Source: Clostridia bacterium | Lineage (GTDB): Bacteria; Bacillota; Clostridia; Christensenellales; Borkfalkiaceae | Assembly (NCBI GenBank): GCA_017558825.1 | Contig: JAFYTO010000011.1 | Coordinates: 62,001-126,000, forward strand | Direction of reading: 5' to 3' | DNA: 64,000 nucleotides | Part shown: piece by piece, positions 13,164-44,330 of the stretch | Layout: every line of letters begins with the position of its first letter | Numbering within the stretch: position 1 is the stretch's first letter | The notes under the pieces: model-generated | The model's database searches: none | What the model was told of the DNA's origin: nothing | Seen by the model: the letters and a program-made list of their open reading frames with translations, nothing else | Position numbers and translations under genes: made by a program

Positions 13164-13233
13164 TTCCGAAAAGATTATAAAAATATTCCGATTGGCTATT
13201 GACATTGTTCCGAAAAACAAGTATAATATTCCG
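13164..13233 (+). promoter_or_regulatory. phased TTCCG operator array over the Fic-RM promoter
   Basis: TTCCG occurs at 13164, 13186, 13208 and 13229, all on the plus strand, with start-to-start spacings of 22, 22 and 21 bp, about two helical turns each. The first and third share GTTCCGAAAA; the second and fourth share ATATTCCG. The third lies inside the promoter spacer and the fourth just after the -10. This is what an autoregulatory operator read from one DNA face would look like. Confidence 0.6.
13199..13227 (+). promoter_or_regulatory. consensus sigma-A promoter of the Fic-RM-AbiH operon
   Basis: Perfect TTGACA (13199-13204), 17-bp spacer, perfect TATAAT (13222-13227). Such a strong promoter next to a restriction enzyme is expected to be repressed, which fits the operator array lying across it. 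AAGGAG precedes the ATG at 13250. Confidence 0.88.
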
Positions 13234-13249
13234 TATAAGGAGTTTTATT

Positions 13250-14143: not shown

Positions 14144-14154
14144 GGAAGAAAATT

Positions 14155-16935: not shown

Positions 16936-16950
16936 CAAAGGAGAAAACAA

Positions 16951-20396: not shown

Positions 20397-20425
20397 TTGA
20401 CAGTATAATTATGACGTGTTAAAAT
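20397..20425 (+). promoter_or_regulatory. promoter of the small membrane peptide gene
   Basis: TTGACA (20397-20402), 17-bp spacer, TAAAAT (20420-20425). ATGGAGG lies 8 nt before the ATG at 20453. Confidence 0.7.
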
Positions 20426-20853: not shown

Positions 20854-22794
20854 ATGGAAAAAGTTTTAAACATAGCGCTAGACCTTGGCGGAGATACTAT
20901 AAAAATAGCATTTGCTTTTGATGATGATTTTTTAAAAACTACTTATGGCAAATTTTCGTGCAAAAGCAAACTTACTCAAATAGCTATTCCTGCAATAGGT
21001 TATTATAGCGAAGATGAAGACAAATGGTATTATGGTGACCAAATTGCAAAACAAAGCGATTCTTTTGTAACAGTAGTCAAAATAAAAAGTTTAATATCGC
21101 TACTTACAAAGCAAGAGAGTAGCATTTGGCAAAGAAATAAAAACTATTACTATAACGAGCATTATTTTCCAAAATTCTACTTTCCAGTAAGAAAGAGAAT
21201 GTTAGATGATTTTGGAAAGATGGTTGCCAGCGATATGACTTTTACTTGTGAGCGATATACTCCACAAGAAATATGCAAAGATTTTTTTAATTATATAAAA
21301 GACCTTGTTGACAAAAGATGCGCCGAATTAAATATGGCTCGTGGGACAGAATTTTCTTCTTATAGAATTTCCGTAATACACCCGTCTAGCGTGGGAGATG
21401 AATATTTACACGAACTCTCTTATTTAGTTCAAAAGTCTTTTGGCGTAAAGCCTTTTAAAATTATAAATTCAACAAAAGCCCTTTCTATTTATGCGTTCCA
21501 TAGAGGTGCTGTTAGAAATAACGAAAGTTTCTTAGTTTTTGATATGGGCGAAGAAGAAATTTCAGTTACTAGAACAGGATTTATAAATAATCAAATATTC
21601 GTTGATGGTGTAGAAGGGCATAACGAGCCTTTGCAATTAGGCGGTATAGACGTTGACCAGGCTATAGTTGAAAATATTTACAAGTCAATTGCTGATAGGG
21701 AAACAATAGGCTCTCCTTCTGCCGGAAAAAAAGGGCATATCTTTGAACGTGGCGTTTTTGGCAAACAATATTTGTTAATGAAGGACGTAAAAAAAGCCAA
21801 GGTGATTCTAGGCAAGCCTTTAAAGGAAGATAGTTTTTTTAGTAATGGTGTTCCAGTTACGCTTGGCTGGGAGTTGTTTATTCAAAAAAGATTTACTAGG
21901 GAAGACTTTAAAAATAGTATGGGTTACCCAACTAATTCAGGCGTTGCTGAAAAGATTTGTGACTATATTATAAAAGAGGTTACTAGACCTATAAATCATG
22001 ACGTAAAAAAGATATTTTTATCAGGTGGAATCGCGGAAACTTATTGCCTAGTTGAATATATTTGCGAACAACTTAAATATAGGGCTCCAGATGTTAAGGT
22101 TTGCACTTTTGACAACTGTGTTTATGAAGGCGACGATTTTACAATTCTTTCTCATGAAGACTCCGTTTTTGCCGCAGCGATAGGAGGCGCTATAGTTGCA
22201 CTTAAGAATATTGAGATTAAAACAATTCTTTCATTGTCTTATGCAACTTGGGCGATTATAGACAATATTAAATGCCTTTCAATTTTTGCAGAGCGTGGCG
22301 AAATAATTGACGGAGGAAGAAGATTTGTTAACAAGTATCACGTTGGACAGTATGGTGTTTTGGAAGGAGAAGAGTTGTTCTCAACTTATCTTTCAAAAGC
22401 CGATATAGCAAAGAACGTTGGTAAAGGGAAATGGAATTATACTGATAGCGGAGGCTTAATTATAGGCGAAGATAATACCGTAGAAAGAAGCAGGGCGCAT
22501 CGCGACTTTGATTTGAGAGTGGTTTCCGGCGGAAAAGACGGAAAAATAATTTTTAGGCACAATGGCAAGCAATGTAGAATTATAACGGATTATAAAATAG
22601 GTTTTGAAGAAGGTATTATGGTAGATTCAAAAGGCGTTGCCACTCCTATTTTGAGAAATATAACTCCCAAGGGGGTATTAGTGAGAATACTTTACTTAAA
22701 CGTTTCAGGTTACAGTAGTGAAAATGTGGTTGATGCATCTAGCATAGAGATTGTTCCAGTGGGGCTTAAGGGCTTTGTAACGGTTCAAGATTAA
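20854..22794 (+). CDS. HSP70/actin-fold ATPase with a divergent C-terminus (operon gene 1)
   Basis: The 646-residue protein has the three ATP-binding signatures of the HSP70/actin superfamily: phosphate-1 LDLGGDTIKIAF (residues ~8-19), phosphate-2 VFDMGEEEISVTR around Asp230, and the adenosine motif LSGGIAET (from ~389). A large insertion lies between phosphate-1 and phosphate-2. After ~residue 475 there is a beta-rich segment (YATWAIIDNIK, later GGKDGKIIFRHNGK) that takes the place of the DnaK substrate-binding domain but is not recognisably homologous. I chose ATG 20854 (after AGAGGAAAAG) over upstream starts that lack a ribosome binding site. It is the first gene of the operon. It may act as a chaperone-like or filament-forming switch for the other components; its partners are not known. 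Confidence 0.75.
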   Translation: MEKVLNIALDLGGDTIKIAFAFDDDFLKTTYGKFSCKSKLTQIAIPAIGYYSEDEDKWYYGDQIAKQSDSFVTVVKIKSLISLLTKQESSIWQRNKNYYYNEHYFPKFYFPVRKRMLDDFGKMVASDMTFTCERYTPQEICKDFFNYIKDLVDKRCAELNMARGTEFSSYRISVIHPSSVGDEYLHELSYLVQKSFGVKPFKIINSTKALSIYAFHRGAVRNNESFLVFDMGEEEISVTRTGFINNQIFVDGVEGHNEPLQLGGIDVDQAIVENIYKSIADRETIGSPSAGKKGHIFERGVFGKQYLLMKDVKKAKVILGKPLKEDSFFSNGVPVTLGWELFIQKRFTREDFKNSMGYPTNSGVAEKICDYIIKEVTRPINHDVKKIFLSGGIAETYCLVEYICEQLKYRAPDVKVCTFDNCVYEGDDFTILSHEDSVFAAAIGGAIVALKNIEIKTILSLSYATWAIIDNIKCLSIFAERGEIIDGGRRFVNKYHVGQYGVLEGEELFSTYLSKADIAKNVGKGKWNYTDSGGLIIGEDNTVERSRAHRDFDLRVVSGGKDGKIIFRHNGKQCRIITDYKIGFEEGIMVDSKGVATPILRNITPKGVLVRILYLNVSGYSSENVVDASSIEIVPVGLKGFVTVQD

Positions 22795-27311: not shown

Positions 27312-30300
27312 ATGAAAAGTTCAGTTTTTCAAAATAAGATAAAAAACAGTAAAATTCTTTTATACGTTACCTCTATATTGTTATTAGTAACAGACGTAAT
27401 TCTTGCCGTTGCACTTGGTATTGGCGGAGAGTTATTTAATAGTGGAATTTGTGTTTTTCTTACTGTTATATTTGACGCATTATTAATAGTGGCAATTTGT
27501 TTTTCTAATTTTAGAGTTAGTTATAGCAAGAAATTGCCTATCGCATACATAATAGCAACGCTTTTAATAGACGTTATAATTGCCCCTATTCTTTCTAAGT
27601 CAATTTTTACAATTGTTGCATTTTTATTGTTTGCACTTTTTAGAGTGGCGGCTATTATTGCTATTTTATTCGGGCTTTTAGGCAGTGTTGCACGTGCAAA
27701 ATATATTAAGTTCTTAACGTTTATATTTACAGTAGCATTTGCGGGATTTTCAGTTTTTTATGTTTTCAACGTTTTCCCAAACGGCTTTTATGGACAAGGA
27801 AAAGTTGGTATTAGAAACATTGCTTACGAATATAACGAAGAAGAAGACGGCTACGTTGCAAAACTTCTAAATGGAAATAGAGGCAACACAATTGTTATTG
27901 CAAATGAATTTAATGGTAAAAAGGTTGTAGGTATAGATGCAGGCATATTTAACAGTGATGAGGTTGAATTTGTCAATCTTGAGTGTGATGCCGGATTCTT
28001 TATTGAAAATCATACAATTCTTCAAAACATAAACAAAAAGCAAGTTATTACAATAGACTATACAAAAATAGATGAGGCAAGAAAGTCTATATATTTGAAT
28101 TCAAAGGGCAAAACAACATCATTAGCGCAAGCTTATGTTGCTTTTGCAAACCAGATTACGCCAAGCGGTCTTGAAAAAAATCAAGTTTATATAAATTTTG
28201 ACTACTCGTATGCTGATTTAGAATACGCTAAATTTGAAACGATAGATACATGGATTGGTGAAAAGGGTGAGGTATTTGACCTTGTAGCGCATGCTGGGCA
28301 TCTCCCTTACGTAAAAGAATATGATTTAGAAAATGAGACCTTCTTAAAAGAAAACTATGAGAACGGTGGCAAAGTTATAAACGCTCTTGTTTATAACAAT
28401 CAAGTAATTATAGGAAGCGAAGTAAATGAATCTATGCCAAACACTGTTATTTCATTTGAACATATACGAAAGGTAGTTGTTCAAGAAGATAACGATAGTG
28501 TTTACAATTTATTGACTAATGACGTTGCGTTTTCAAACGGCGGAAATGCCAGATATATTTTAGAAACGGATCCATTCAACATGTTAGGAGATATAACGCA
28601 AAGGGAGGGTTTTACAGTTTCATTTAAATATAAAACAACAGAAAATGGCCAAACAAAAACATTTAATGAGCTTAGTAAAATTCTTACTGGTGACGTGTTT
28701 ATAGTTCCTGAATGGAGTCTTGATTTGCCTAAGGTTTCGGCAATAGAGAAAAACCAAAATAATTTTGTATATGGCGATACTTTAACTCTTTCGGCATTAG
28801 CTCAACATGATGCTGGCGATAAGTTTGAGTATAGGTGGGTTAAAGATGGTAAAGATAGTGTAATTTCATACGAATCTAGCTATGAAAAGAATAACGTAAA
28901 ACCTTTAACAGATTCAGGCACGTATAAATTATTTGTAACTGCAACACCTTCTTGCACTTCGCTTACGGCAACAGCAACAGTATCAGTAGATGTTGCGGTA
29001 AATAAAAAGTTGTTAAATTTCACCTGGAGCAACACGGAAACTGCAGTTTATTCGGGCAATTACCAAACTATAACAGCTTCTTATAACGAAAATGACGTTA
29101 TTAATTCGGACACTATTGAGGGTTATATTGATACAAGCATTGATAGCAAAGGAGGGTTTACGTCTACTCATAAAGATGCGGGAACTTATAATTATGCAAT
29201 AACGTTAAAAGGTGATTGTAAAGATTTATACACGGTTAACGCAAACAATCAATTTTATACTTGGACAATTAAACCTTACGAAATTGAAGTTAATTGGGAC
29301 GAGGAAGAGTATACTTATAATAATGAAATTCAAATGCCTGATATTGAACCTATAAAAGGAATAGGGCTTGAAAAAGACACGTACTTAAGTTATAGCGTAA
29401 CCAAATATATTGGCGACTGTAAAAGTGCGATTAATCATACTGTAAAAATTATATTGGATAATTCAATTCAAGCAGGCAATTATAAAATAACGAATTATAC
29501 AAAAGATTACAAGATTAATAAAAAAGTAATTTCTTTAACTTGGTCAAGTAATTTATTTACTTACAACGCAAAGTCGCAAAAGCCTACTGCTACTGCAAAT
29601 GACGTATGCTTAAAGGATACGTGTTTGGTAAGCGTTTCAGGAGAAAAGGTTGCGGTTGGAAACTACGTTGCCGAAGCAACGTTGGTTAACACTAACTACA
29701 CTATAGAAGATGGTTATACAACTAAAGAGTTTACAATCGAGCCTAAAAAAGTTACGCTTATTTGGAATAAAAATTCATTTGTTTATTCATCAAGGCAGCA
29801 AGGTCCAACGGCAACCGCTGTTGGAACATGTAGTGGAGACGTTGTAGGTTTTGACTACAGCGGATATGAAAAAGATGTTGGAATGTATACTGCATATGCT
29901 ACAATTAAAAACTTGAACTATGAAATTTCCGGTTCAAATTATTACGATTATAGTATTGAGCAAAAAGAAGTAACGTTGAGATGGGCAAAAACCACAACTA
30001 CTTATAGTGGAGAAGAACAAAAACCTACGGCAACCGTTAACAGCGTATATGCTGGAGACAACTGTTTTGCCATTATAGAATTAGATGGTTTAGGTATAAA
30101 CGCTGGCACGTATAATGCAACTGCAACGTTGAATAACAGTAACTACAAGTTGGCATCTACTTCTAGCTCCACGTCTTTCAATATTACAAAAAAATCGCTT
30201 ACTATAACTGCAAATTCTCACGCGATTACTTATGGTGATACCCCTTCAAATGCGGGTATAACATATTCAAAAGATTTTGTGAATGGCGAAGACTATACAG

Positions 30301-31178
30301 TTTTAGACGGTTCTTTAAATTATAGTTACAGTTATTCAAAAAACGACCCGGTAGGAAATTACACTATTAGGATTTCTGGACTTGAAGCAGACAATTATGC
30401 TATAACTTATAAGCAAGGTCTTTTAACTGTAAAAGAAAAAGAAATATCTGTTAATATCGATGATAAAACCAGCATATACGGAGCTAATATAGAACAACTC
30501 ACGTCAAGCATTGTTGAAGGAGCTCTCGTTGCGAGCGATTCCGAACCTTATAAATTAACAACTGTTGCAAAATCTACGTCTAACGTTGGCAACTATGCAA
30601 TTAGAGGAACAATTACAAATGCAAACTATAAAGTTAATTTTATAGAAGGCACTTATAAAATAACCAAGGCAACACTTACTGTACAAGCTACTAGCAAAAC
30701 AGAAGTAACATATGGTTTTACAGGTACTATACCTTATAACTTTAGCGCATCAACAAATAACGGAAAGACAGCTACGGTTACTGGATATAGTAGTGTTAAT
30801 TCTAAAACAAATGTTGGCGAGTATAGTTATGACGTTAATTACGATACAATAAATTACAACATGGTAAAGGTAAACGTAAATAACTTTAAGGTAGTAGTTA
30901 ATCCAAAAGCAGTAACACTTTCTTGGAATCCTTTATCTTCTTACACTTTAACAAATTACACCCAATTAAAGCCGTTAGTTGCAGGTGCACTTATAAGTGA
31001 TTTAAATTTAACTTACACTTATAATGCTGTAAGTGGGCAAGGTGGAATGGTTGAAAATAATGCTCCTTTAAGAAATGGTAAATATATTGTAATTGTGAGT
31101 TTAAATAATGCAAACTACTTATTACAAGGCTCTTTGTCGACAGAGTTTACAATAAACACACCAGTAGTAACTGAATAA
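27312..31178 (+). CDS. membrane-anchored protein with nine MBG-like repeats (operon gene 4)
   Basis: The 1288-residue protein starts with five hydrophobic helices within the first ~155 residues (for example ILLYVTSILLLVTDVILAVA and FLTFIFTVAFAGFSVFYVF). A Lys-rich N-terminus inside and an odd number of helices puts the rest outside. Residues ~160-480 are an unassigned domain, ~485-555 an Ig-like domain, and ~563-1280 about nine ~80-residue repeats of MBG/YDG type. Repeat starts include KKVISLTW, KKVTLIW and KEVTLRW with a following QKPTAT, and later YGDTPSN and IYGANIE forms. Such repeats build stiff surface stalks. No LPxTG sorting motif ends it. RBS AGGAGG. It is the only clear membrane protein of the operon and may be its sensor or envelope anchor. 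Confidence 0.75.
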   Translation: MKSSVFQNKIKNSKILLYVTSILLLVTDVILAVALGIGGELFNSGICVFLTVIFDALLIVAICFSNFRVSYSKKLPIAYIIATLLIDVIIAPILSKSIFTIVAFLLFALFRVAAIIAILFGLLGSVARAKYIKFLTFIFTVAFAGFSVFYVFNVFPNGFYGQGKVGIRNIAYEYNEEEDGYVAKLLNGNRGNTIVIANEFNGKKVVGIDAGIFNSDEVEFVNLECDAGFFIENHTILQNINKKQVITIDYTKIDEARKSIYLNSKGKTTSLAQAYVAFANQITPSGLEKNQVYINFDYSYADLEYAKFETIDTWIGEKGEVFDLVAHAGHLPYVKEYDLENETFLKENYENGGKVINALVYNNQVIIGSEVNESMPNTVISFEHIRKVVVQEDNDSVYNLLTNDVAFSNGGNARYILETDPFNMLGDITQREGFTVSFKYKTTENGQTKTFNELSKILTGDVFIVPEWSLDLPKVSAIEKNQNNFVYGDTLTLSALAQHDAGDKFEYRWVKDGKDSVISYESSYEKNNVKPLTDSGTYKLFVTATPSCTSLTATATVSVDVAVNKKLLNFTWSNTETAVYSGNYQTITASYNENDVINSDTIEGYIDTSIDSKGGFTSTHKDAGTYNYAITLKGDCKDLYTVNANNQFYTWTIKPYEIEVNWDEEEYTYNNEIQMPDIEPIKGIGLEKDTYLSYSVTKYIGDCKSAINHTVKIILDNSIQAGNYKITNYTKDYKINKKVISLTWSSNLFTYNAKSQKPTATANDVCLKDTCLVSVSGEKVAVGNYVAEATLVNTNYTIEDGYTTKEFTIEPKKVTLIWNKNSFVYSSRQQGPTATAVGTCSGDVVGFDYSGYEKDVGMYTAYATIKNLNYEISGSNYYDYSIEQKEVTLRWAKTTTTYSGEEQKPTATVNSVYAGDNCFAIIELDGLGINAGTYNATATLNNSNYKLASTSSSTSFNITKKSLTITANSHAITYGDTPSNAGITYSKDFVNGEDYTVLDGSLNYSYSYSKNDPVGNYTIRISGLEADNYAITYKQGLLTVKEKEISVNIDDKTSIYGANIEQLTSSIVEGALVASDSEPYKLTTVAKSTSNVGNYAIRGTITNANYKVNFIEGTYKITKATLTVQATSKTEVTYGFTGTIPYNFSASTNNGKTATVTGYSSVNSKTNVGEYSYDVNYDTINYNMVKVNVNNFKVVVNPKAVTLSWNPLSSYTLTNYTQLKPLVAGALISDLNLTYTYNAVSGQGGMVENNAPLRNGKYIVIVSLNNANYLLQGSLSTEFTINTPVVTE

Positions 31179-31202: not shown

Positions 31203-32363
31203 ATGAAATGCACTCAAATTAACTGTGGCAAAAAATTTGAAAAATCATTAATATTATATAACGGAGCTTTAGTTTGCCCTCATTGTAAAAAAGAACTAAC
31301 AGTAGTTTCAGATTTTAAAATTACTGAGAGAAATCAAGAAATATATAATTTGTCCGAGTTATATTTGCATAGATATCTTTCCCCAAAATCTCAAGATGAA
31401 ACAAGGGGAGCCGTTATTAAATTAAGGGCTAATGAAATGATAGGATTGGCAATAGATAACTGTAACACTGCCGCAAAAGAAGGCAATCCGTATGCCGTTT
31501 ATAGAATGGGATATTATAACGAGTATTTTTTAGAGTCGCAACGTGGCGAAACGGACAGAATTCGCGTAGCGTTCAACTATTATTCATCACTTTGTTATAG
31601 TGAGGCAAAGAAAGTTAAAGTAGAGCAAGGGGCTTCGGCAATGAGCGAAGAAGAGTTCGAAAGGCTCAAGCGCCAAGCCGCAATCGCTTTATTAACTCTT
31701 TATGACCGTTATCCTCAGGCATTAAAAGGCTCTACGAGATATGATTATGAAAAAAACAAGCAACGTATAACAAGCATTTACGGAGATTTGCCGGTCGAAG
31801 TAAATTTAGCAAAAAAACGTGCTAGCGGACATACTCAAAACGTGTTTAGAATTTTATTATCGTGTTTAAATAGAAATAGAGCACCACTTTGGGGTTTGTT
31901 TTTGCTTACGGGTTCAGAGTTAAAAAGTTTATTTTTAATGAAAAAAGACCAAAGGGAAAAGAAGCCAGAGCTTTATAAATTAATATCAAAAGGAGTACAT
32001 CTTAGATATTTGCCGTGTGACTCTGAGGGTGTTATAGCAAAAGATTTGGAAGATAGATATTTTATAAATTTTCCAAACAATGAAGAAAGAGTTAAAGAAA
32101 TGCTACAAGATATAAAAGACGATGAAAATTTGTATCTTTACTTATTTAATACAAAGGGCGGACACGAATATTTGTCGGCATCACAAATTAAAAAAATTGG
32201 CATTAAACTGGCAAGTAACTCGTACGAGTCAGTATGTTCTTTAATAGACTATTCTGCACAGGAATATTTATTTTTTGATGATGATATTTTTGTTTATAAA
32301 AGAGGCATTAAAATAGAAAAATGCGTAGACGTTTTAATTGAAAAAATTTCGGGAGATGAATAA
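31203..32363 (+). CDS. N-terminal zinc-ribbon protein with helical repeats (operon gene 5)
   Basis: The 386-residue product opens with a zinc ribbon (Cys3, Cys8, Cys25 and Cys28; VCPHCKKEL). Next is a helical stretch (residues ~50-140) with AAKEGNPYAVYRMGYYNEYF, which resembles a Sel1/TPR-like repeat. The second half is alpha/beta with conserved-looking FINFPNNEERVKEML and YLFFDDDIFVYKRG blocks. I cannot assign a family. A scaffold role between the zinc-binding and coiled-coil partners is a reasonable guess. It starts 24 nt after gene 4 with AAGGAAA as ribosome binding site and ends 1 nt before gene 6, so the two are translationally coupled. Confidence 0.6.
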   Translation: MKCTQINCGKKFEKSLILYNGALVCPHCKKELTVVSDFKITERNQEIYNLSELYLHRYLSPKSQDETRGAVIKLRANEMIGLAIDNCNTAAKEGNPYAVYRMGYYNEYFLESQRGETDRIRVAFNYYSSLCYSEAKKVKVEQGASAMSEEEFERLKRQAAIALLTLYDRYPQALKGSTRYDYEKNKQRITSIYGDLPVEVNLAKKRASGHTQNVFRILLSCLNRNRAPLWGLFLLTGSELKSLFLMKKDQREKKPELYKLISKGVHLRYLPCDSEGVIAKDLEDRYFINFPNNEERVKEMLQDIKDDENLYLYLFNTKGGHEYLSASQIKKIGIKLASNSYESVCSLIDYSAQEYLFFDDDIFVYKRGIKIEKCVDVLIEKISGDE

Positions 32364-32364
32364 G

Positions 32365-33864
32365 ATGGATATAAAAAATATTGTAAATTGTTTTGAAGCA
32401 AACGGAATTGTTTATCCACGTGAGTTTATTACTATTGAAAAGGACGGTTGTGACAAGGTTTTTGAAGACGTATATAAGAAAACCCTTAAAAGAATAGATG
32501 CTCTAGTTAGATTTGGAAGCAATAATGGTTTTAATGCCGACCTTAAAACAGGAATAGCAAAATTGGTTAAAATAATGTGCACTATTAGCAAAGAAAAACG
32601 TGTTAAGTTGCACGATAAGTTTTTAGCAGAATCAAATAAAATCTATAGCGAAATGGGGAATAGTATGAAAGAAGTAAATGTCCAATTTGATATGGTAGGA
32701 AAAGTAAACACCTATATTGAAAAATACAAGCTAGGCATGGAAGTGCTTTTAGATATGGATGTGGCCTCAGACCGTAAGACGGTATTACATAAAGGCATAG
32801 AAAAATGCAAGCAAATGCAAAGTATATTAGCTGATGTTATGAATAATTCTACGGCATCAGCCTTAGAGCAAGCAAAAGAAATTATTAAAGAATTGCAAGC
32901 ATGGGCAGATATCGTTGCTAACAAGATGCATGATGATGCAGATTTAATTCATTTAGACAAAGCTATTGCAATTTCAAAACAATGGAAAAACAATAGAGAA
33001 GTTGTAAAAGCAGGAATGTTTGGAAAAACCAATAAGGTTGCAGACATTAAGGAACTCGAATTTTTAGAAGACAATCTTTCTATGATTGGCAAAAGTAGAG
33101 ATGCTACTAGAGAAATTGGCATCTTTATGCAAAATCTTAAAGAATACAAAGAACAAGTTGTAGGCAATGGTCCAGAAAAAATAAAAGAAGAAATAGAGCT
33201 TAAAAAAGAAGAAAGCTCTAAACTTAAAGCAAAAAAAGATGATTTAGTTGTACAGTTCCAAAACGGCGAAATTTCGAAAATGGATTTATATGAAGAATGT
33301 ATGGATATAGATAATGAAATGGCGGACGTTAAGGAAGATATTGAAGACCTTCAATATAAATATAACAATGATAAAGAGGCCTATAGGCTTACAAAAAAAG
33401 TTCTTGACAATTTAAATTCTATTAACAGTCAAGTTTTAGAATACAAAGCAGACCCTATATATTTTGGTTTATTGGCTGATGAGCTTGATTTTAGCAAGTT
33501 AACTAGAGTGATGCGCGGGGCTGGAAATACGGAAGACGTAGACTATATTTTTGACGTTCAAAGTATTTTGGATAGAGTTAAAGATAGAAGGCGTAAAATT
33601 GAAAGAGAAATGACAGACGCTATTAGAAAGAGACACGAGGCTAGAAATGCTGAGCGCAGACAAGAAAGGCAAGCTCGCTTATCAGCGCAAATGAATGGTC
33701 GTGAAAACGAAAGAAGCGAAACTGAAGCAATGGCAGAAGATTACATAAATCAACTTCTTGGACAGACAAAAGCTACTGAAAACACTGAAAATGATAGTGT
33801 TAAAAAGAAGGAAGATATAGCAGAAGAGAATACAAGAATCGCATTAGGCGATGATGAATTATAA
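32365..33864 (+). CDS. coiled-coil protein (operon gene 6)
   Basis: The ~499-residue product is almost wholly alpha-helical. Strong coiled-coil character is seen at ~270-350 (EEIELKKEESSKLKAKKDDL and following) and ~415-455, a very basic helix (RKIEREMTDAIRKRHEARNA) followed by an acidic, low-complexity tail ending in GDDEL. There are no Cys clusters, no membrane segment and no enzyme motif. The basic-helix-plus-acidic-tail pattern recalls PspA/ESCRT-III-like proteins in general shape only; I do not claim homology. ATG 32365 is preferred, 9 nt after GGGAG; an ATG at 32356 in the same frame is too close to that site. It overlaps the end of gene 5 closely and is 8 nt from gene 7. Confidence 0.6.
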   Translation: MDIKNIVNCFEANGIVYPREFITIEKDGCDKVFEDVYKKTLKRIDALVRFGSNNGFNADLKTGIAKLVKIMCTISKEKRVKLHDKFLAESNKIYSEMGNSMKEVNVQFDMVGKVNTYIEKYKLGMEVLLDMDVASDRKTVLHKGIEKCKQMQSILADVMNNSTASALEQAKEIIKELQAWADIVANKMHDDADLIHLDKAIAISKQWKNNREVVKAGMFGKTNKVADIKELEFLEDNLSMIGKSRDATREIGIFMQNLKEYKEQVVGNGPEKIKEEIELKKEESSKLKAKKDDLVVQFQNGEISKMDLYEECMDIDNEMADVKEDIEDLQYKYNNDKEAYRLTKKVLDNLNSINSQVLEYKADPIYFGLLADELDFSKLTRVMRGAGNTEDVDYIFDVQSILDRVKDRRRKIEREMTDAIRKRHEARNAERRQERQARLSAQMNGRENERSETEAMAEDYINQLLGQTKATENTENDSVKKKEDIAEENTRIALGDDEL

Positions 33865-33872
33865 TAGTAAAA

Positions 33873-35828
33873 ATGATTATTCCTGAGGCAATAGACTACG
33901 TTAATACTTTATATTATAAAAGCATAGATGTTCAAACTCTTAGTGAAGGGGTTGAAATTTTGCAAGACATATTAACAAATAAGCAACCACGTGCAAATTT
34001 TAAAAAAAATGCGGAAGCTCTTTTATATCGTCTTACAGCTAAAATCCTTGCCTTAAAATATTTTGATGAAGGGTATTTAGAGGAAGATTATATTATACTT
34101 AAACAGCAAATTGCCGAATTTATTGTTAAGGTTGAGCAAGAAGGGTATTTAAAAACAGTTACGTTATTAAAAAATCTTTTAGAAGTTGCTGAAAGTGTAC
34201 ATTCGGTAATGGATGGCTTAGATGCTGAAATTTGTCGCATGCAAGATGAAAATGGAAACCCTACAACCTCCGACCAAATAGAGATTGAAAAATTTGCAAT
34301 TTATTTTAGAAGCAAAGCAGAAGCATTGTCTAACGTAAAAGACACGGCAACGCTTTTTGGCGAAAACGTGGCCATGAAAGATATTAAGGCCTGTGCCATA
34401 AAAGACGTTTTAGACGTTGCTATATGGGCTGAAAATATATTAAAAGCTTCTACTTCAATGGAAAAAGAGAAATTCTTTAACGAGAATTTGCAGTTGCTTG
34501 AAGAACAAGATGGGCTTAAAATTTTTAAATATTATCCTCCTATTTTAGAAAAGGAGAAAAATGCATCTAAAGTAACGGTTATTATGTCTCCGTTTATAGA
34601 TGAAGTTATTTTGTATGCTCGTGCTTATGAAAAAGAAAGGGGTATTAGTTTTTCAATAATTAACGCTTCTGCATTTATAGGTAAAGCAGATAGTTTTATT
34701 AAGGAAGTATTTGATAGCTTAGGCGAAAAAAATTCGAATATTATAATCACTGGAATTCACTTTTACAATTATCAAAACAAAAGTGCGTTAGTAGAAAACG
34801 TTTTATATTATTCAAAACAGTTTGGCGAAGTGTTTTTAATTGATGAATACGGCGATAGAAGTATTTACGATTTTGCGTACGATATAATAAAACAAAAAGA
34901 AGATTTATCTTATAGTGATATTTCATATAGATATTTAACTATGCCAAACTACAATTTTGTTGTTTCCGAAATGGAAGAGATTGGCATGATAAACGCTTCC
35001 GAATATGCTTATATAAAAAATAAAATGGCGTTTATGGGTTACGTTGGGCTCAACGTTGCGTATTCTTTATTTATGCAAGAAAGGCAATGGAAAGATGATG
35101 TTATAGATATTTCTAGGCGCCACGAGGCTGAATGTCAAACATATCTAAGAAGAATACCATCACAACAACAATTTATTGACGTAGGTTGGAAGCATTTAGA
35201 GCTTAGTTATAACGCTCGCTCAAGAAAAGAGAATTTTGATTACGATTCTATAAAAGACGTTAATATTAACAATATTAAAAAAATACTATCTTCTTCAAGC
35301 ACTCTTTTTGCAAAATGTGGACTTATAGTAAAATATTGCGTTTTGGCCGGAGATGACGTTTCTTCTTGGGAAAGAGTTGAAAAGGGAGTAAAAGAGGGGC
35401 GAATTAATAATGCAACGAAGTTAGTAGCGCATCTTTTAGATTGCGAAAATGAGCCTGAAGTAAAAATAATTTCATTGGACGAGTGGGAATCAAAAGGCGC
35501 AGGAGCTCTTTGTTGCGATGGCGGAAAACGCATATTATACAGGGAAGATTGTTGTAATGACGTTGCTTGGTTAATGGATGCCATTTGCCACGAATGTTAT
35601 CACTCGTTTCAACACACTTTACAACATAGAGGCTGGCAAAAATGGCATTGGATGGAGCTTGGCGTAACAGAATATCGCGTTCCTGAATGGGACTATAATT
35701 TTGGTAAATACAAATCAGCAGGGTCGCAAGCGTACGCTATACAAGTTGTAGAAAGCGATGCTAGAACATTTGCAAACGACTGTCTTATGCAAGGAGAAGA
35801 GAGTTGGCAAACTGTTGATTGGGAGTAG
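33873..35828 (+). CDS. HExxH zincin-like protein (operon gene 7)
   Basis: In the 651-residue product the C-terminal ~100 residues look like a zinc metallopeptidase: ICHECYHSFQHTL, with His573, Glu574 and His577 as HExxH, then VVESDARTFAND, where Glu627 would be the third ligand. This ESDAR-like glutamate ~50 residues downstream resembles the E..A..FA pattern of ImmA/IrrE-like zincins. The preceding ~530 residues are unassigned: a helical N-terminus and an alpha/beta middle region with VTVIMSPFIDEVILYARAYE and NIIITGIHFYNY. If active, it could cleave a repressor or a phage or host protein to trigger the system. The stop lies 2 nt before the preferred start of gene 8. Confidence 0.65.
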   Translation: MIIPEAIDYVNTLYYKSIDVQTLSEGVEILQDILTNKQPRANFKKNAEALLYRLTAKILALKYFDEGYLEEDYIILKQQIAEFIVKVEQEGYLKTVTLLKNLLEVAESVHSVMDGLDAEICRMQDENGNPTTSDQIEIEKFAIYFRSKAEALSNVKDTATLFGENVAMKDIKACAIKDVLDVAIWAENILKASTSMEKEKFFNENLQLLEEQDGLKIFKYYPPILEKEKNASKVTVIMSPFIDEVILYARAYEKERGISFSIINASAFIGKADSFIKEVFDSLGEKNSNIIITGIHFYNYQNKSALVENVLYYSKQFGEVFLIDEYGDRSIYDFAYDIIKQKEDLSYSDISYRYLTMPNYNFVVSEMEEIGMINASEYAYIKNKMAFMGYVGLNVAYSLFMQERQWKDDVIDISRRHEAECQTYLRRIPSQQQFIDVGWKHLELSYNARSRKENFDYDSIKDVNINNIKKILSSSSTLFAKCGLIVKYCVLAGDDVSSWERVEKGVKEGRINNATKLVAHLLDCENEPEVKIISLDEWESKGAGALCCDGGKRILYREDCCNDVAWLMDAICHECYHSFQHTLQHRGWQKWHWMELGVTEYRVPEWDYNFGKYKSAGSQAYAIQVVESDARTFANDCLMQGEESWQTVDWE

Positions 35829-35830
35829 GC

Positions 35831-38800
35831 ATGAATAAAATTAGTGAAAATATAGAGGCGTTTACAATAGACCTTTTACATATAAACGATATTTCAAGCA
35901 ATAAACTGATTGATTTATATGCTGGAGATTTAAGTAAAACCTTTTTTATTTCTCACCCAACAAGAGATAATTTAAGTAAATACGTTTTAGAAATTATTTC
36001 TGCCAGAATAGGAAAAGTGGGAAATACCGTATTATTGCAAAGTGCAATTGCAAATAAAAGTGAGCAAATTTTAGGTAAAGATATAAATGATTTAGCTTGG
36101 CAAGATGCTAAAGGCAATACTGATGCCGTTGCACTTCATAAATACATTGAAAACGTATATAAAGAGTTAGACCTTAGGGGAAACAATCCATTATTTTTTA
36201 GCGTGGGCGCAATAACGTGGAAAGTTGCTAGCAAAGAATATTCCATTAAAGAAGTTACATCTCCACTTTTACTTTTTCCTATAAAATTTATTCGCTCCAC
36301 AAGCAAAACAACTCCAATTTATATAGAATTTGTTTGTGATGACATCTATATAAATCCTTGTTTTTTGGCGGTCTTGCGACAAATGGCAGGAGATAAAATT
36401 GTTGAAGATTTTCCACATCCCAACCAAAGCGTGTGCGACGTAGATTGCCCTATTAACATTGATTATTTAGGCAATGGCGAAGCATATTTTGCAAAGGTGG
36501 AGGAGTACGTTAGTTCGCAATGTAGATCAGATATTAGTAGTGATACTACGTTTAAATTTGATAAAAATATTGTTGCAATATCTCAATATAATCACGATGA
36601 ATTGTGTATGTATTATGATATAAAGCGCAATAAAGAAAAGATATATTCTCACCCTCTTATAAATAGAATTTTTAGCAAGGGTGAGCCTTACCAAGAAGTT
36701 GATTATTCAAAAACAATACCTCAGTTTATAATGCCTAGAGATAGCGTTCAAGAACGTATTGTTAAAAGGGTTGTTGCAGGGCAGTCTTTAATAGTTAAAG
36801 GCCCTCCAGGAACGGGTAAAACGGTTACTATTACTAACTTAATAGCTTCCTTATTAGCGCAAAATAAAAAAATTCTTTTGTCATCTCAAAAGTCTGCGGC
36901 TATGTTTGAAGTGTATGCTAAATTGCCACCGTCTATTCGCAAGTTTGTAATGCTTTTAGATAGTGAAACAGAGGCTCAAGCTTCAAAACTTAACGTTGTT
37001 GATGTAAAAAAAGAATTCAATCAACTTTTAAGCGATAGAAAAAATCACACTTTTTCGGCTGACAAATACGATGATTATGAATGTGGCAATAGGGAAATTG
37101 CTTCTACTATTGCAACTATAAAAAACTACCGAGAACTTATGTTTGACAACAAAGATGTTGTGGGCAGGAGTTATTATTCGGCGTTAGACACTATATGTAA
37201 ATATGATATAGACCCAATCTTGTTTATGAATTCTAATGATGCCTGCAATATGACGTCTAAAGAATTTTCATATTATGCAAATTTGGTAAACGAGGCTGGC
37301 GAATGGCTTGATAAGGCAGCTTTAGACCACGAACTTATAAAAAGTCCTTGGTATCCAATAAACGGCAGTTTAGACGGCGTAGAAATTGAGAAGGTTGTTG
37401 AATATAACGGCAAGCTTTCTAATGCTATAAGTGAACTTGTTGCCGAATGTGAAGGCGTTGAAGGCTTACAGAGTAAATGGTATAAAAATATCTCAATTTC
37501 AGTTCTTGATTGCGTTTTAGAACAGCCTTTAGATGAAGGGCTTCTTAAAACCGTTTCAAACATTGATAATGTAGAGTTGTTAAAATCGGTATGCACAGTA
37601 TATGAAGAATATTTAGCAACGCAAAGTGCTTCAACAGAAATTTCAAATCCGCCAGCTGAAGCTATTGAAAAATATGCTAAAGAGTTAGGGTTATGTAGAA
37701 TTGATGGAGATTTAAAAAAGTCGCAATTCCTAACATTCTACGATAATTCAAACGTAATAGAATTGCTATCAGGGAAAAGTCAATTAGAAGCAATTACTAG
37801 CGCCATTAATTTTGTTGAAGATATAGAGGTTAAGAAGAAGGAATGTTTAGATGAATTCTATTCAATTTTTAGCCCCGATATTTCTAAAGAAAATTTATCA
37901 CTTATAGAATGCTCTTTTAAAATATTTAACGCTTACGCTAAAAAAGAGGATTGTATCAAACCAAAGCTTTTAGATTTTAAAACAAAAAAAGCTTATGCGA
38001 TATTAAATAAGTTGGGTTATGGCGAAGAGATTTCATTTAAAGATGTTGTAAAAGGCGTTTGCTTATTTAACAACGTAATAAATTTAGATAAAAATTTAGA
38101 TGGTCTTAAAGCCAAATTATCTTCTCAATTTAAAATAAAATTAAACGCTCAGCAAATTGAAGCGTTATTCAAGTTTGTAGATAGTTGTAAGAAATCCGAA
38201 TTAGATATAGCTAATTGCGTTAAAGATTTTATTGACTGTAAAGATACGATTTTTAATGCAATTAAAGAGTGTAATAGCGATGTTGATTTTACTATTAAAG
38301 ACTTACTTAAAACGTATTTAAAAACAGGAGCGTTTGAAAATCTTGCAGCCGAAACACAACGTTTTGCAGACGCCAATAATATTTTAATAGAAGGCAATAG
38401 CGTTGAAAGTTTTGCAAAAGCCGTATATGGAACAAGCAAAATTTTTGAAAGTTCAGCAGTAGGAAACACTATAGAAGAAGTGCTAAGAAACGGCGGTATA
38501 ATCTATAATGCCAAAAACAAATTAAAGCCTTTACTATTTAAAATAAAAGCATTATTATTGGAATTTGAAAAAAATTGTTTTGCATCATTCTATACTGTCA
38601 AAAACGAAAAATGCTTACTTAAAGAACTAGAACTAATAGTTAAAGAAGGGCAAGATAGAAGTGTGTGCAATGCACTTTGTCAATATTTTAAAGTAGTTAA
38701 ATGTTCACATGAAGCGTGTTCATTAGAACGTTTCTTTAGGCCTTTTGAAACAGGATTAAGGGAAAAAGGCAAATATAGCTATAAAAGTATTTTTGAATTT

Positions 38801-40423
38801 TCAGTCAATTGGCTTGCTGTTGAAAACAAGAAAAACTCTATGGGCGAACTTAGAAACGGCTTAAGAGATAAAATTTCTTACGAGTTAAACGATTGGAAAA
38901 ACGCAATTTCTCAAATTGATAAGGCAACACTTTCTATAATAGAAGATCAATGCATGGCAAAAATTAATTATAATGACCAAGACTTCAATTTTCTTAAAGC
39001 AGAAAAGCAGGGCGGTCAAAGTCTAAGAAGATTTTTTAAGGAAAATGCCAAAGCTATTCTTAAACTTAAAAAATGCTTTATTTTGTCCCCTTCAACTGCA
39101 AGTGTATTTTTTACAAAAGAAGAATTTAATGATTTTGATATCGTTATTGTTGACGAGGCCAGTCAATTAGAACCAACCTCTATTTTGCCTGTACTTTTTA
39201 GGGCCAAACAAGTTGTACTAATTGGAGACGAGTGGCAAATGCCACCAATTAAACACTTTGCTAATCGTGTAGAAAAGCGTATTGTAGATAGTGAGGGAGA
39301 GGTTAAAATACTTAGCCCAAACACTTCGGTGCTTGGTTTGGCACTTGATAATTGTGCTTTTCCTGTAGAGCAGTTCATTTGTCATTACAGAAGTAAGGCG
39401 GAATCATTAATTGCCTTTTCTCAGGAAAAATTTTATCCAAATATGAGAACTTTTCCTGCTAGAGTTCCTAAAGCGGAAGGGTTAGGGTTTAAAGATATTT
39501 ACGTGCCTGACGGATGTTGCGATGGCGGTGTTAACGAAAAAGAAGCTATAGCGGTTGTGAAACAGCTTAAGCTACATTTTGACACTTATTATGATGAAAG
39601 CACCAAATCTTTAAATGGAAGTTCCGTTGGCGTAGTTGCTTTTGGCAAAGAGCAAAAAGACTATATTGAAAGTTTGGTTGCAAAAGATACAGACCTTGCT
39701 TCAAAAATTCAAAAGGCAATTGAAAATTTTGGAGATTTGCCAGAGAAATTAATCTTTTTTAAAACAATTGAAAGTGTTCAAGGTCAAGAGGTTGAGCATC
39801 TTATACTTTCTCTTACTTATGGAAAAAACAAAGAAGGCAAAGTTGTGCAATCGTTTGGCGAGTTAAATAGAGGTTTTAATGAAGACAAGTTAGGGCAATG
39901 TATATTTAACGTTGCCGTTACAAGAGCAAAAAGCTCTATAGCAGTAATCCACTCTATTTTAGCTGAAGAAATTAAATTAGAATCGATTGATTTTATTGGA
40001 AAATACTTATCTATCGTTAACAAGTTTGGCAGTGATGACAATAGAGAACAATGGGTAGGGAAAAAGGTTGATGAAACAACTGGATTTATAAGACAAGTTG
40101 CTAACTTTATAATTGAAAGTGGTGTAGATGAAAAAAGAATAGTAATTGACTATGGCGTAAATCCAACGTCTATAAAAATACCAATAGTTATTCTTTCTGC
40201 AGATTTGACTGAAGCTGAACTTGGATTGTGGTGTGAAACGGAAGTCTTAGAAAATTCTAATTATTTTGATATTAACGTTAGATATGTTGACAGTTTAGTT
40301 GATAGAGGTTGGAATATTCACAAAATATTTATTCACGATTGGGTTGACAACAGCAAATCTGAAAAAGAAGCGCTAAAAAAAATATTAAAAAAATATGTAA
40401 ATATAGAAAACAGTGAGGTGTAA
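35831..40423 (+). CDS. DUF4011/UPF1-like superfamily 1 helicase, 1530 aa (operon gene 8)
   Basis: The N-terminal ~230 residues resemble DUF4011: NNPLFFSVGAITW and TSPLLLFPIKFIRS. An SF1 motor follows: Walker A KGPPGTGKTVTITN (Gly324 onward), DEASQ (1108-1112), LIGDEWQMPP (motif III), TIESVQGQEVEHLILSLTYG (motif V) and FNVAVTRAKSSI (motif VI). Between motifs I and II there are ~780 residues of mostly helical insert, far more than in UPF1 or DNA2. The C-terminus has DRGWNIHKIFIHDW, as found at the end of DUF3320-type helicases. Large helicases of this kind occur in several bacterial defence loci. Preferred ATG at 35831 follows GGGAG; a TTG at 35819 overlapping gene 7 is the alternative. Confidence 0.8.
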   Translation: MNKISENIEAFTIDLLHINDISSNKLIDLYAGDLSKTFFISHPTRDNLSKYVLEIISARIGKVGNTVLLQSAIANKSEQILGKDINDLAWQDAKGNTDAVALHKYIENVYKELDLRGNNPLFFSVGAITWKVASKEYSIKEVTSPLLLFPIKFIRSTSKTTPIYIEFVCDDIYINPCFLAVLRQMAGDKIVEDFPHPNQSVCDVDCPINIDYLGNGEAYFAKVEEYVSSQCRSDISSDTTFKFDKNIVAISQYNHDELCMYYDIKRNKEKIYSHPLINRIFSKGEPYQEVDYSKTIPQFIMPRDSVQERIVKRVVAGQSLIVKGPPGTGKTVTITNLIASLLAQNKKILLSSQKSAAMFEVYAKLPPSIRKFVMLLDSETEAQASKLNVVDVKKEFNQLLSDRKNHTFSADKYDDYECGNREIASTIATIKNYRELMFDNKDVVGRSYYSALDTICKYDIDPILFMNSNDACNMTSKEFSYYANLVNEAGEWLDKAALDHELIKSPWYPINGSLDGVEIEKVVEYNGKLSNAISELVAECEGVEGLQSKWYKNISISVLDCVLEQPLDEGLLKTVSNIDNVELLKSVCTVYEEYLATQSASTEISNPPAEAIEKYAKELGLCRIDGDLKKSQFLTFYDNSNVIELLSGKSQLEAITSAINFVEDIEVKKKECLDEFYSIFSPDISKENLSLIECSFKIFNAYAKKEDCIKPKLLDFKTKKAYAILNKLGYGEEISFKDVVKGVCLFNNVINLDKNLDGLKAKLSSQFKIKLNAQQIEALFKFVDSCKKSELDIANCVKDFIDCKDTIFNAIKECNSDVDFTIKDLLKTYLKTGAFENLAAETQRFADANNILIEGNSVESFAKAVYGTSKIFESSAVGNTIEEVLRNGGIIYNAKNKLKPLLFKIKALLLEFEKNCFASFYTVKNEKCLLKELELIVKEGQDRSVCNALCQYFKVVKCSHEACSLERFFRPFETGLREKGKYSYKSIFEFSVNWLAVENKKNSMGELRNGLRDKISYELNDWKNAISQIDKATLSIIEDQCMAKINYNDQDFNFLKAEKQGGQSLRRFFKENAKAILKLKKCFILSPSTASVFFTKEEFNDFDIVIVDEASQLEPTSILPVLFRAKQVVLIGDEWQMPPIKHFANRVEKRIVDSEGEVKILSPNTSVLGLALDNCAFPVEQFICHYRSKAESLIAFSQEKFYPNMRTFPARVPKAEGLGFKDIYVPDGCCDGGVNEKEAIAVVKQLKLHFDTYYDESTKSLNGSSVGVVAFGKEQKDYIESLVAKDTDLASKIQKAIENFGDLPEKLIFFKTIESVQGQEVEHLILSLTYGKNKEGKVVQSFGELNRGFNEDKLGQCIFNVAVTRAKSSIAVIHSILAEEIKLESIDFIGKYLSIVNKFGSDDNREQWVGKKVDETTGFIRQVANFIIESGVDEKRIVIDYGVNPTSIKIPIVILSADLTEAELGLWCETEVLENSNYFDINVRYVDSLVDRGWNIHKIFIHDWVDNSKSEKEALKKILKKYVNIENSEV

Positions 40424-40424
40424 T

Positions 40425-41123
40425 ATGGCTGATAAAGAAACTAGATTTAGGTCGGACAGTTTAAATTTATTAAACGAAGAAATTGTTGCAGAGCAACAAC
40501 AAAGGGAAAAAGAAAAAATAAGCAAAGCAAGAGAACAAAGTAAAATTGATTTTAGAATCAAGCAAGAACAGTTACTCAATCAGCTTATAGAACTTGAGCA
40601 AGAATATGGCGAAGACTATTATTTAGTGGAAATGCTTTCAACTTTCTATGAGGTTTCCGTTGAAATGGAAAACGTTATGAAGTCAATGGAATCTGTAAAC
40701 ATGGCAATGGAATGTATTACAGAAGCTTTAAGTTTTTTAGATTCCACTATTCAGTTTGACCAAAAATTAATGGAGCAATCTAACAGACAAAGCTATTCTT
40801 TTATTGCGCGTTTTAGATTAAGAATGCAAATGCGTAGAACAAGGAAGAATAATATTGGTAGAATGAAAGCCATGGTAGATGGCCTTATGTTTAAATATAG
40901 AATGATGGACGATATGGTTAAGTCATTAAAGAAATTTGCCCTTACTATGAGCAAGAGCTTTAAAAAGGTTGGCAAAAAGAAAAAGGGCGCCGCCAACGTT
41001 GGTCCAACAGAGGCTCAAAAAAGAATTGCGCAAAGAAAAGCAGAACTTGGAGTTGCCAATAATGCTACTATTACGGAATCTACGGGCACTGATTCTAGTG
41101 GCAATTATGATGACGTATTATAA
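40425..41123 (+). CDS. small coiled-coil protein, 232 aa (operon gene 9)
   Basis: The product is highly charged and helical. Residues ~20-55 (EEIVAEQQQREKEKISKARE) form a coiled coil; a Met-rich helix (~80-115, YEVSVEMENVMKSMESVNMA) and a strongly basic segment (RFRLRMQMRRTRKNN) follow; the C-terminus is a low-complexity, Ser/Thr/Asp tail. It has no enzyme motif. It starts at ATG 40425, 1 nt after the gene 8 stop, and sits directly before the Vps4-like ATPase, which makes it a candidate substrate or adaptor of that ATPase. I find no family name for it. Confidence 0.6.
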   Translation: MADKETRFRSDSLNLLNEEIVAEQQQREKEKISKAREQSKIDFRIKQEQLLNQLIELEQEYGEDYYLVEMLSTFYEVSVEMENVMKSMESVNMAMECITEALSFLDSTIQFDQKLMEQSNRQSYSFIARFRLRMQMRRTRKNNIGRMKAMVDGLMFKYRMMDDMVKSLKKFALTMSKSFKKVGKKKKGAANVGPTEAQKRIAQRKAELGVANNATITESTGTDSSGNYDDVL

Positions 41124-41144
41124 TTTTAATTGTGGAGAAAGCTT

Positions 41145-42332
41145 ATGAGCGGAATAGGAAAGAAAGGGTATGAAAAAACAACTTCAGACAATAAGAGTTT
41201 AGAACAGCTTAAAAAAGAGTTTGATGAGATAATGGCAAAAATACGTACTCTTATTGGGGCGCGTAAAGACAAAAATCAAATGACTCCTGAAGAAAAAAGA
41301 ACTTTAAGAACAGAGTATAATAATGCTGCCAAAATAGCCAAAAAAATATACGAGCGCGCAGAAAATGACGATGCGTTAGAAGAAAAATATAAAGATTTGC
41401 ATAAAAGGTGCTTAGACAAAGCAGAAAGTTATGGATCTATAATGAAAAGAGAAGCTCCAAAAACCACAATGGAAGATATAAAGGGGCAAGAAGACGTTAA
41501 GAACTTAATAAAGTCGTTTGCTTTTATGGCAGACAATCCAGATATTTTAAAATATTATAAAATTCAAGGTGGCTTAGGTCTTTTAATGTACGGAGCGCCT
41601 GGAACAGGTAAAACAATGTTTGCTGAAGCTATTGCTAATAAAATGCAACTTCCACTCTTTGTTGTTACACCAGCAGATATTTTTAAGTCATACGTAGGCG
41701 AATCTGAACAGGCAGTAAAACAACTTTTCCAAGATATTGAAAGTTGTGAAGAGGGCGCAATTCTTTTTGTAGATGAATGTGAATCTATTTTCAGTAAAAG
41801 AACAAACGATACAAAGGATTATAAAGCAGCGGTTACTACAGAATTATTGCAAAGAATGAATGGTTTTGGCGTTGACGGCTCTAAGCGTATTTTAATTGGC
41901 GCAACTAACCGCCCAGACCAAATAGATCCAGCATATTTAAGATATAAAAGATTTTCTCATATGGTGCATATTACTCCACCAGATGCTACGGCAAGGCGTT
42001 CTATTGTAGAAAGCAAATTGAACGGCATTCCTTTAGCAGATGACGTTACTATTGACGATATTATGTTTATGATGAGTAAAGCTCAATCTACTTACGTAGA
42101 CGATTATGGCAAAATGGCGGGAGGAGGCTCTTATTCTTCAGCAGATATATGCGGCATCATTGAAGAAGCATGTCGTCTTGCTCTTGAGAAATTAATGGAA
42201 AAAAATTCTACAACTCCAATTCCTGTAGGCAGAGAAATGTTTGAAAAGGCTATTGCAAAAAATCCGCCAAGTATCAGTAGAGAAGTGCTGGAAACGTATA
42301 ATAAATTTAGAGAATCTATAAACGACAAGTAA
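41145..42332 (+). CDS. Vps4/katanin-like classic AAA ATPase (operon gene 10)
   Basis: The 395-residue protein has ~110 residues of helices at its N-terminus (LEQLKKEFDEIMAKIRTL and onward) followed by one AAA domain: Walker A GAPGTGKT (150-157), pore-loop region DIFKSYVGESE, Walker B ILFVDECES (Asp210, Glu211) and the second region of homology ATNRPDQIDPAYLRYKRF with its arginine fingers. The AAA domain and the helical N-terminus together recall Vps4, spastin or katanin, whose MIT domains bind helical filament proteins; membership in the MIT family itself is not shown. It is the last gene before the operon terminator. Start ATG 41145 follows GTGGAG; a TTG at 41130 is unlikely. Confidence 0.85.
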   Translation: MSGIGKKGYEKTTSDNKSLEQLKKEFDEIMAKIRTLIGARKDKNQMTPEEKRTLRTEYNNAAKIAKKIYERAENDDALEEKYKDLHKRCLDKAESYGSIMKREAPKTTMEDIKGQEDVKNLIKSFAFMADNPDILKYYKIQGGLGLLMYGAPGTGKTMFAEAIANKMQLPLFVVTPADIFKSYVGESEQAVKQLFQDIESCEEGAILFVDECESIFSKRTNDTKDYKAAVTTELLQRMNGFGVDGSKRILIGATNRPDQIDPAYLRYKRFSHMVHITPPDATARRSIVESKLNGIPLADDVTIDDIMFMMSKAQSTYVDDYGKMAGGGSYSSADICGIIEEACRLALEKLMEKNSTTPIPVGREMFEKAIAKNPPSISREVLETYNKFRESINDK

Positions 42333-42342
42333 TAAAGAAATA

Positions 42343-42371
42343 AAAAGTCTGGTATTTAGCGCCAGACTTTT
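42343..42371. terminator. bidirectional terminator ending the ten-gene operon
   Basis: A 10-bp stem AAAAGTCTGG/CCAGACTTTT (42343-42352, 42362-42371) followed by TTTATATT; the left arm's A's serve the converging minus-strand channel gene. Confidence 0.88.
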
Positions 42372-42407
42372 TTATATTATTTTTTAAGTTAAAGAATAGG
42401 TTGCAAA

Positions 42408-44243: not shown

Positions 44244-44330
44244 ATTAGTTGCTCCTAAGTGAAACATTGCCTATTAGTAATATAGAGCAAAATGTAATAA
44301 TGTAATGCTATTTCAATGTTAATTGTCGAT

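Follow-up and report, generated by a model that had tools for sequence, protein, structure and literature searches.

The stretch at 40425-42332 of the window, by which we mean the whole 64,000 nucleotides of Clostridia bacterium DNA analysed, holds genes 9 and 10, the final two of ten genes that form one operon on the + strand (20854-42332). An earlier note, made from the sequence alone, had drawn attention to an AAA ATPase gene (gene 10) next to the helical genes 9 and 6; that arrangement stands, and all of these genes lie inside a larger ten-gene operon which had gone unnoticed. Intergenic gaps within the operon are at most about 25 bases. Start codons were refined by sequence, beyond the mechanical starts of the open reading frames: the ATG of gene 6 was set from the sequence and the L009 homologue, and the best start of gene 10 is ATG 41145, with GTGGAG upstream, TTG 41130 being its mechanical start only. 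The features are as follows.

20397-20425: promoter-like site ahead of gene 1
20854..22794, + strand: gene 1, ATPase-like protein of Hsp70/actin type (ASKHA), about 646 aa
22815..25652, + strand: gene 2, SNF2 helicase with zinc-type cysteines at the C-terminus, 945 aa
25657..27294, + strand: gene 3, 545 aa, many invariant Cys/His of zinc type, outside known families
27312..31178, + strand: gene 4, membrane protein with a large region that contains MBG repeats (MBG_2)
31203..32363, + strand: gene 5, 386 aa, N-terminal zinc ribbon with conserved zinc-type cysteines, plus a helical region; outside known families
32365..33864, + strand: gene 6, coiled-coil protein with a predicted disordered acidic tail
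33873..35828, + strand: gene 7, protein with an HExxH ... ESDAxxF zincin-like motif, absent from the short variant
35831..40423, + strand: gene 8, SF1 helicase carrying an MTES_1575 nuclease-like domain at its C-terminus; absent from the short variant
40425..41123, + strand: gene 9, from ATG 40425 to a stop codon at 41121-41123
41103..41120, + strand: C-terminal tag of gene 9, NYDDVL; [IVYLFN]xD[IV] at the end in 14/15 homologues
41145..42332, + strand: gene 10, classic AAA ATPase with a helical N-domain
41199..41429, + strand: three-helix N-domain of gene 10 (AlphaFold2)
41580..41972, + strand: AAA domain of gene 10 (PF00004, E 1e-33)
42180..42314, + strand: Vps4_C-like C-terminal helix of gene 10 (PF09336, 21.7 bits, cut-off 21.3)
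42342-42372, + strand: intrinsic-terminator-like hairpin closing the operon (1 found versus 0.1 expected)

The gene 3' of the operon has the opposite orientation. This convergent gene (42408-44267, - strand) encodes a protein with sub-threshold similarity to Castor/Pollux and RCK ion-channel proteins.

We compared the neighbourhoods of ten genomes and of contigs L009, L010, L016 and L022. The order is that of an Hsp70-like ATPase, SNF2 helicase, zinc protein, membrane protein and zinc/helical protein (genes 1-5), followed by a coiled coil, zincin-like protein, SF1 helicase-nuclease and genes 9 and 10. It was identical in the ten neighbourhoods and the four contigs, as far as the sequence extends, and is thus conserved in 14 related genomes or contigs, the ten relatives spanning several families. 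The most divergent copy is that of L010, a contig labelled as an uncultured Bacilli MAG. Among 297 genomes of the order, 13 had a relative of gene 9, the source genome counted, and gene 9 had no match in the listed members of the source genome's own family. A phylum-wide search with gene 9 (398 genomes) gave no copy of the operon outside the order, and neither did searches with gene 1 across the class (391 genomes) and the phylum (398), which matched only the source genome and G002, a member of the same order. The operon is therefore patchily distributed within one bacterial order, in gut bacteria. One extra match of the phylum-wide gene 9 alignment search, in G299, was rejected as a peptidase-like protein; a cyanobacterial match (L012) and other weak AAA matches proved to be AAA proteins other than gene 10, and the phage-record matches of gene 10 were FtsH-like or other AAA proteins. 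Scans of viral contigs returned distant AAA fragments or nothing, and gene 3 had no plasmid match. No description of the operon was found in literature searches, and genes 3, 5, 6, 7 and 9 have no Pfam, NCBIfam or PADLOC match. The operon is apparently undescribed in the libraries and literature searched, and adds several protein families without database match to a conserved, testable unit.

The operon occurs in a long variant with genes 7 and 8, found in several families, and a short variant lacking both, found in genomes of genus g76 (G115, G098, G156, G191 and G233). In G002 the locus keeps genes 1-5, genes 6-10 are gone and housekeeping genes come after gene 5; no gene 9 was found in that genome, and its AAA proteins are only distant. 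Since genes 6, 9 and 10 are absent together there, they behave as one submodule. Some copies carry peculiarities of their own. In G233 a duplicate gene 9 paralogue without the C-terminal tag lies between genes 9 and 10 (L046:18308-18874), in G005 the zincin-like gene 7 is present twice in tandem (L044:10552-14232), and in L010 an extra charged protein of 402 aa, with no PADLOC match, is encoded right behind gene 10 (L010:11146-12354). In G269 (L147, G269:C2:28273-29433) the translated search reported an in-frame TAA inside the gene 10 match; the open reading frame is 385 aa.

The genes ahead of the submodule combine ATPase, nucleic acid and membrane features. Gene 1, the conserved first gene of the operon, has HSP70 and BadF matches below the Pfam thresholds, and DxGxxxxK and SGG motifs were spotted by eye. 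Gene 2 contains the SNF2-rel_dom and Helicase_C domains; its nearest defence families, BrxH, DrmD and DpdE, match at about 92-105 bits, far under the cut-offs (500-950 bits in NCBIfam for DrmD and DpdE). In gene 7 the residues H573, E574, H577, E627, D629 and A630 are invariant in the alignment; PDB profile searches with genes 1 and 7 gave no convincing relatives. Gene 8 resembles the Hhe/ProA/PDC-S37 anti-phage proteins (364 bits to ProA over residues 117-1526, 371 bits to PDC-S37) and stays far below the NCBIfam cut-offs for Hhe/ProA (364 bits where 1500 are required, 268 where 2000 are). Neither helicase comes near the cut-off of any named defence family. Hydropathy shows several hydrophobic segments near the N-terminus of gene 4 (residues 13-149), and the gene was found in every copy whose sequence extends that far. 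Together with the MBG repeats, these properties would suit a cell-surface or envelope machine, with gene 4 displaying its large MBG-repeat product and the ATPases building, extruding or turning over a complex at the surface. We regard such a machine as quite improbable, however, since an SNF2 helicase, zinc proteins and, in some copies, an SF1 helicase-nuclease suggest a function on nucleic acids, and no secretion or sortase genes were recognised within the operon.

Conservation within the operon is highest for gene 10, with about 60% identity across families. Counted from ATG 41145, about 107 residues precede its AAA domain, in agreement with the roughly 110 given before, and the claim of intact Walker A, Walker B and arginine fingers is borne out by an alignment of 11 relatives, in which GAPGTGKT (Walker A), ILFVDE (Walker B), ATN (sensor-1) and the LR[YF]KRF arginines vary little or not at all. 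The N-domain carries invariant basic and hydrophobic residues. It had been expected to fold as a three-helix bundle, and AlphaFold2 indeed predicts three helices of 19, 24 and 20 residues (fused residues 259-277, 288-311 and 316-335; block pLDDT 64-90). The model is a chimera of genes 9 and 10 in which two in-frame TAA codons are read as Gly, and its tail, with pLDDT <50, is uninformative on docking. A PDB profile search with the N-domain gave no convincing relatives. In the genome search the Vps4_C match reached 23.1 bits; it passes in 2 of 299 genomes of the phylum, and the control genomes with matches were archaeal. The arginine-finger loop (LRYKRFSH) is two residues longer than that of CdvC (LRRFTKR) and has the Cdc48/FtsH spacing instead of the short RRF-x-[KR]R spacing of Vps4/CdvC. 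The portrayal of gene 10 as Vps4/katanin-like fits its Vps4_C helix and its three predicted helices, and does not fit the length of its arginine-finger loop. In the tree gene 10 forms its own long-branched clade (100/100), and the split of gene 10 plus CdvC against Cdc48 plus FtsH, at 89/79 with long branches, is not enough to claim a grouping with CdvC.

The two helical proteins, like the N-domain of gene 10, were modelled from shallow alignments (3-5 sequences). For gene 9, AlphaFold2 predicts three long helices and one short one, with a tail that is disordered (pLDDT mostly 50-78), which agrees with an all-helical protein with a flexible tail; the tail, described earlier as acidic, is rich in Gly, Ser, Ala and Thr, and acidic-hydrophobic only in its short tip. 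A PDB profile search with gene 9 gave no convincing relatives. Gene 6 is predicted to be all-helical, with one confident hairpin around 270-340 and a disordered acidic tail, much as the earlier note had described it.

The tip of gene 9 is a conserved tag with the consensus [IY]xD[IV]-hydrophobic: D-[IV] is invariant, mostly preceded by [IY]-[DS], and a hydrophobic or small residue follows. Against its occurrence in 14 of 15 homologues, shuffled gene 9 tails averaged 0.17 and never exceeded 4; it ended none of 194 other open reading frames drawn from the retrieved loci, and 1 of 72 other operon proteins. The exception is gene 9 of the most divergent contig, L010, which has no tag. The linker before the tag consists of 58-87% small or disorder-promoting residues. 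The same tag ends gene 6 in all five intact short-variant systems (QITDIV, QINDIV, QINDII and GIDDIIF), the one in G191 being scored by eye since more residues follow the tag than the pattern permitted. In the long variant gene 6 has the tag in 0 of 8 cases, with acidic tips such as LTDDDK instead. The short variant being one genus, the sharing of the tag with gene 6 may represent one evolutionary event.

What could receive the tag? Genes 7 and 8 are not the receptor, since the tag of gene 9 persists in variants without them. As G002 lacks genes 6, 9 and 10 jointly, gene 10 would be the simplest receptor. Judging from these sequence patterns, the N-domain of gene 10 most likely recognises the tag on gene 9 and sometimes on gene 6; the tag could instead bind one of genes 1-5. 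The earlier idea of tail docking gains from a conserved tag on gene 9 that is common to gene 6 in one variant; its MIM-type form does not hold, the tag being neither MIM1 nor MIM2, and the archaeal CdvB reference tails show [LF]P.[IV]P. A tag of six residues also lends itself to a ready test of docking.

A different partner for the tag belongs to another reading of the locus, an anti-phage system of several genes, with gene 10 as effector or signalling ATPase in the manner of IetA and with tags that bind another subunit, e.g., the SNF2 helicase. SSB tails bind helicases, and the acidic-hydrophobic tip on the disordered tail of gene 9 resembles that logic. Gene 10 matches the IetA models (113.6 bits, E 3e-33), and the helicases and neighbouring genes are defence-like. 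However, the IetA score does not exceed those to other classic AAA families (CDC48 155.6, CdvC 136.4, PAN 134.9 bits), no subtilisin partner was recognised in the operon, and G002 keeps its helicase though genes 6, 9 and 10 vanish together. We thus consider the IetA-like system unlikely.

G002 also contains a second, different single-domain AAA protein with its neighbour (contig C2, L148:1285-2436 and L148:2553-3653). The N-part of this AAA protein is helical and looks MIT-like, and its Vps4_C helix scores near the threshold. Beside it are encoded a zinc-ribbon trypsin-like protease and a predicted membrane protein, the latter with an acidic tail that has DDHFDIDDYFNSRGLKLKR at its end. The pair is possibly another bacterial tail-docked AAA pair.

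Genes 6 and 9 had also been likened to filament proteins of the ESCRT-III/PspA type. The references were PspA from bacteria and, from archaea, Snf7/CdvB and CdvC including its MIT domain; reversed and block-scrambled profiles served as controls in the profile comparisons (hhalign). Gene 9 scored within the controls against both PspA and Snf7/CdvB, and the N-domain of gene 10 did no better than the controls against the CdvC MIT profile. Gene 6 matched PspA (E 0.0019, score 32.5), yet reversed PspA scored nearly as high (26.5), so the similarity is that of a generic coiled coil. Family searches for Snf7, PspA and MIT at relaxed E-values gave no match. In Foldseek/VIA, no ESCRT-III was among the matches listed for gene 6 or for the gene 9-10 model; coiled coils and AAA domains dominate the lists, so its absence from them carries no weight. 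At profile level, ESCRT-III kinship of genes 6 and 9 thus appears unsupported, in comparisons whose positive control, Snf7 against PspA, was itself weak (E 0.0067). A true bacterial ESCRT, with genes 6 and 9 as diverged ESCRT-III/PspA filament proteins and gene 10 as their Vps4 acting at the membrane of gene 4, could appeal to the gene order, the three-helix N-domain, the long predicted helices, the Vps4_C match, the membrane protein in the operon, the position of gene 10 on the CdvC side of the tree and a source genome in which PspA has no match. Against this stand the control-level comparisons, the tag outside the MIM types, the Cdc48/FtsH-type spacing in the second region of homology, and helicases and a nuclease that are not ESCRT partners, and we hold such kinship to be very improbable. 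The ESCRT reading has partial support: at most it is correct about the logic of the arrangement, and not about kinship. The SNF2 and SF1 helicases, the nuclease domain and the zincin point to a DNA-centred, defence-like operon rather than to membrane scission.

A defence cluster lies upstream, 3-7 kb from the operon (window 13199-17997).

13199-14143: Fic
14155-16935: MmeI-type IIG restriction-modification (PADLOC, 1107 bits)
16951-17997: AbiH

The patchy distribution, the helicase/nuclease content and these neighbours suggest a defence role. Other copies whose flanks were read sit among housekeeping-type genes, with no evident defence islands; since no other copy was seen beside known defence genes, we hold the defence role at moderate confidence.

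Vps4, Cdc48 and related motors pull on tailed or unfolded substrates. Tag docking, threading, helicase control and a defence role are what we infer for this operon, on the following scheme. Gene 10 would be a ring-forming AAA motor of Vps4/Cdc48 type, whose helical N-domain would bind the C-terminal tag that gene 9 carries on its flexible tail and that gene 6 carries too in certain systems. By taking up and pulling the tail it would dismantle or reset the assembly of helical proteins, and the reset assembly might gate the DNA-acting helicases, gene 2 and, where present, gene 8. That genes 1-10 form such a membrane-anchored, multi-NTPase, defence-like system is our preferred reading, put forward tentatively and with a little less than even confidence. 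A bolder version is rather doubtful: a modular bacterial conflict system in which gene 10 reads one tag on two unrelated helical proteins, by an independently evolved ESCRT/Vps4-like scheme, and controls helicases at a membrane anchor.

Among known systems, gene 2 has the SNF2 core in common with DISARM DrmD, BREX BrxH and Dpd DpdE; it lies below all their cut-offs, and no DrmA/B/C, PglZ or DpdA was recognised in the operon, which does not place it in these systems. Gene 8 is like the helicase-nucleases of the DUF4011/Hhe/ProA/PDC-S37 group, but the operon here is larger and has gene 8 as an optional part. The resemblance to IetAS lies in the ATPase, at a score no higher than to other classic AAA proteins, whereas the ten-gene operon, with no IetS-like subtilisin recognised, sets the locus apart from IetAS. 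With Cdc48/p97, FtsH and PAN gene 10 shares the AAA core, the pore loop SYVG and an equal arginine-finger loop length; unlike them it has one AAA ring only, its own helical N-domain, a Vps4_C helix and a clade of its own. ESCRT-III/Vps4 systems (archaeal CdvB/CdvC, with bacterial PspA/Vipp1 as relatives of ESCRT-III) differ in the tail motif, in the arginine-finger spacing and in the helicase/nuclease operon found here; no homology of genes 6 and 9 to ESCRT-III, or of the N-domain to MIT, could be detected. They are nevertheless alike in the single AAA domain, the predicted three-helix N-domain, the Vps4_C helix, and the adjoining genes for helical partners whose flexible tails bear a short end motif. 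A Vps4-like docking logic would here probably be the product of convergence; if this is true, the tail-tag and AAA-motor scheme of ESCRT/Vps4 has more than one origin and can power processes other than membrane scission.
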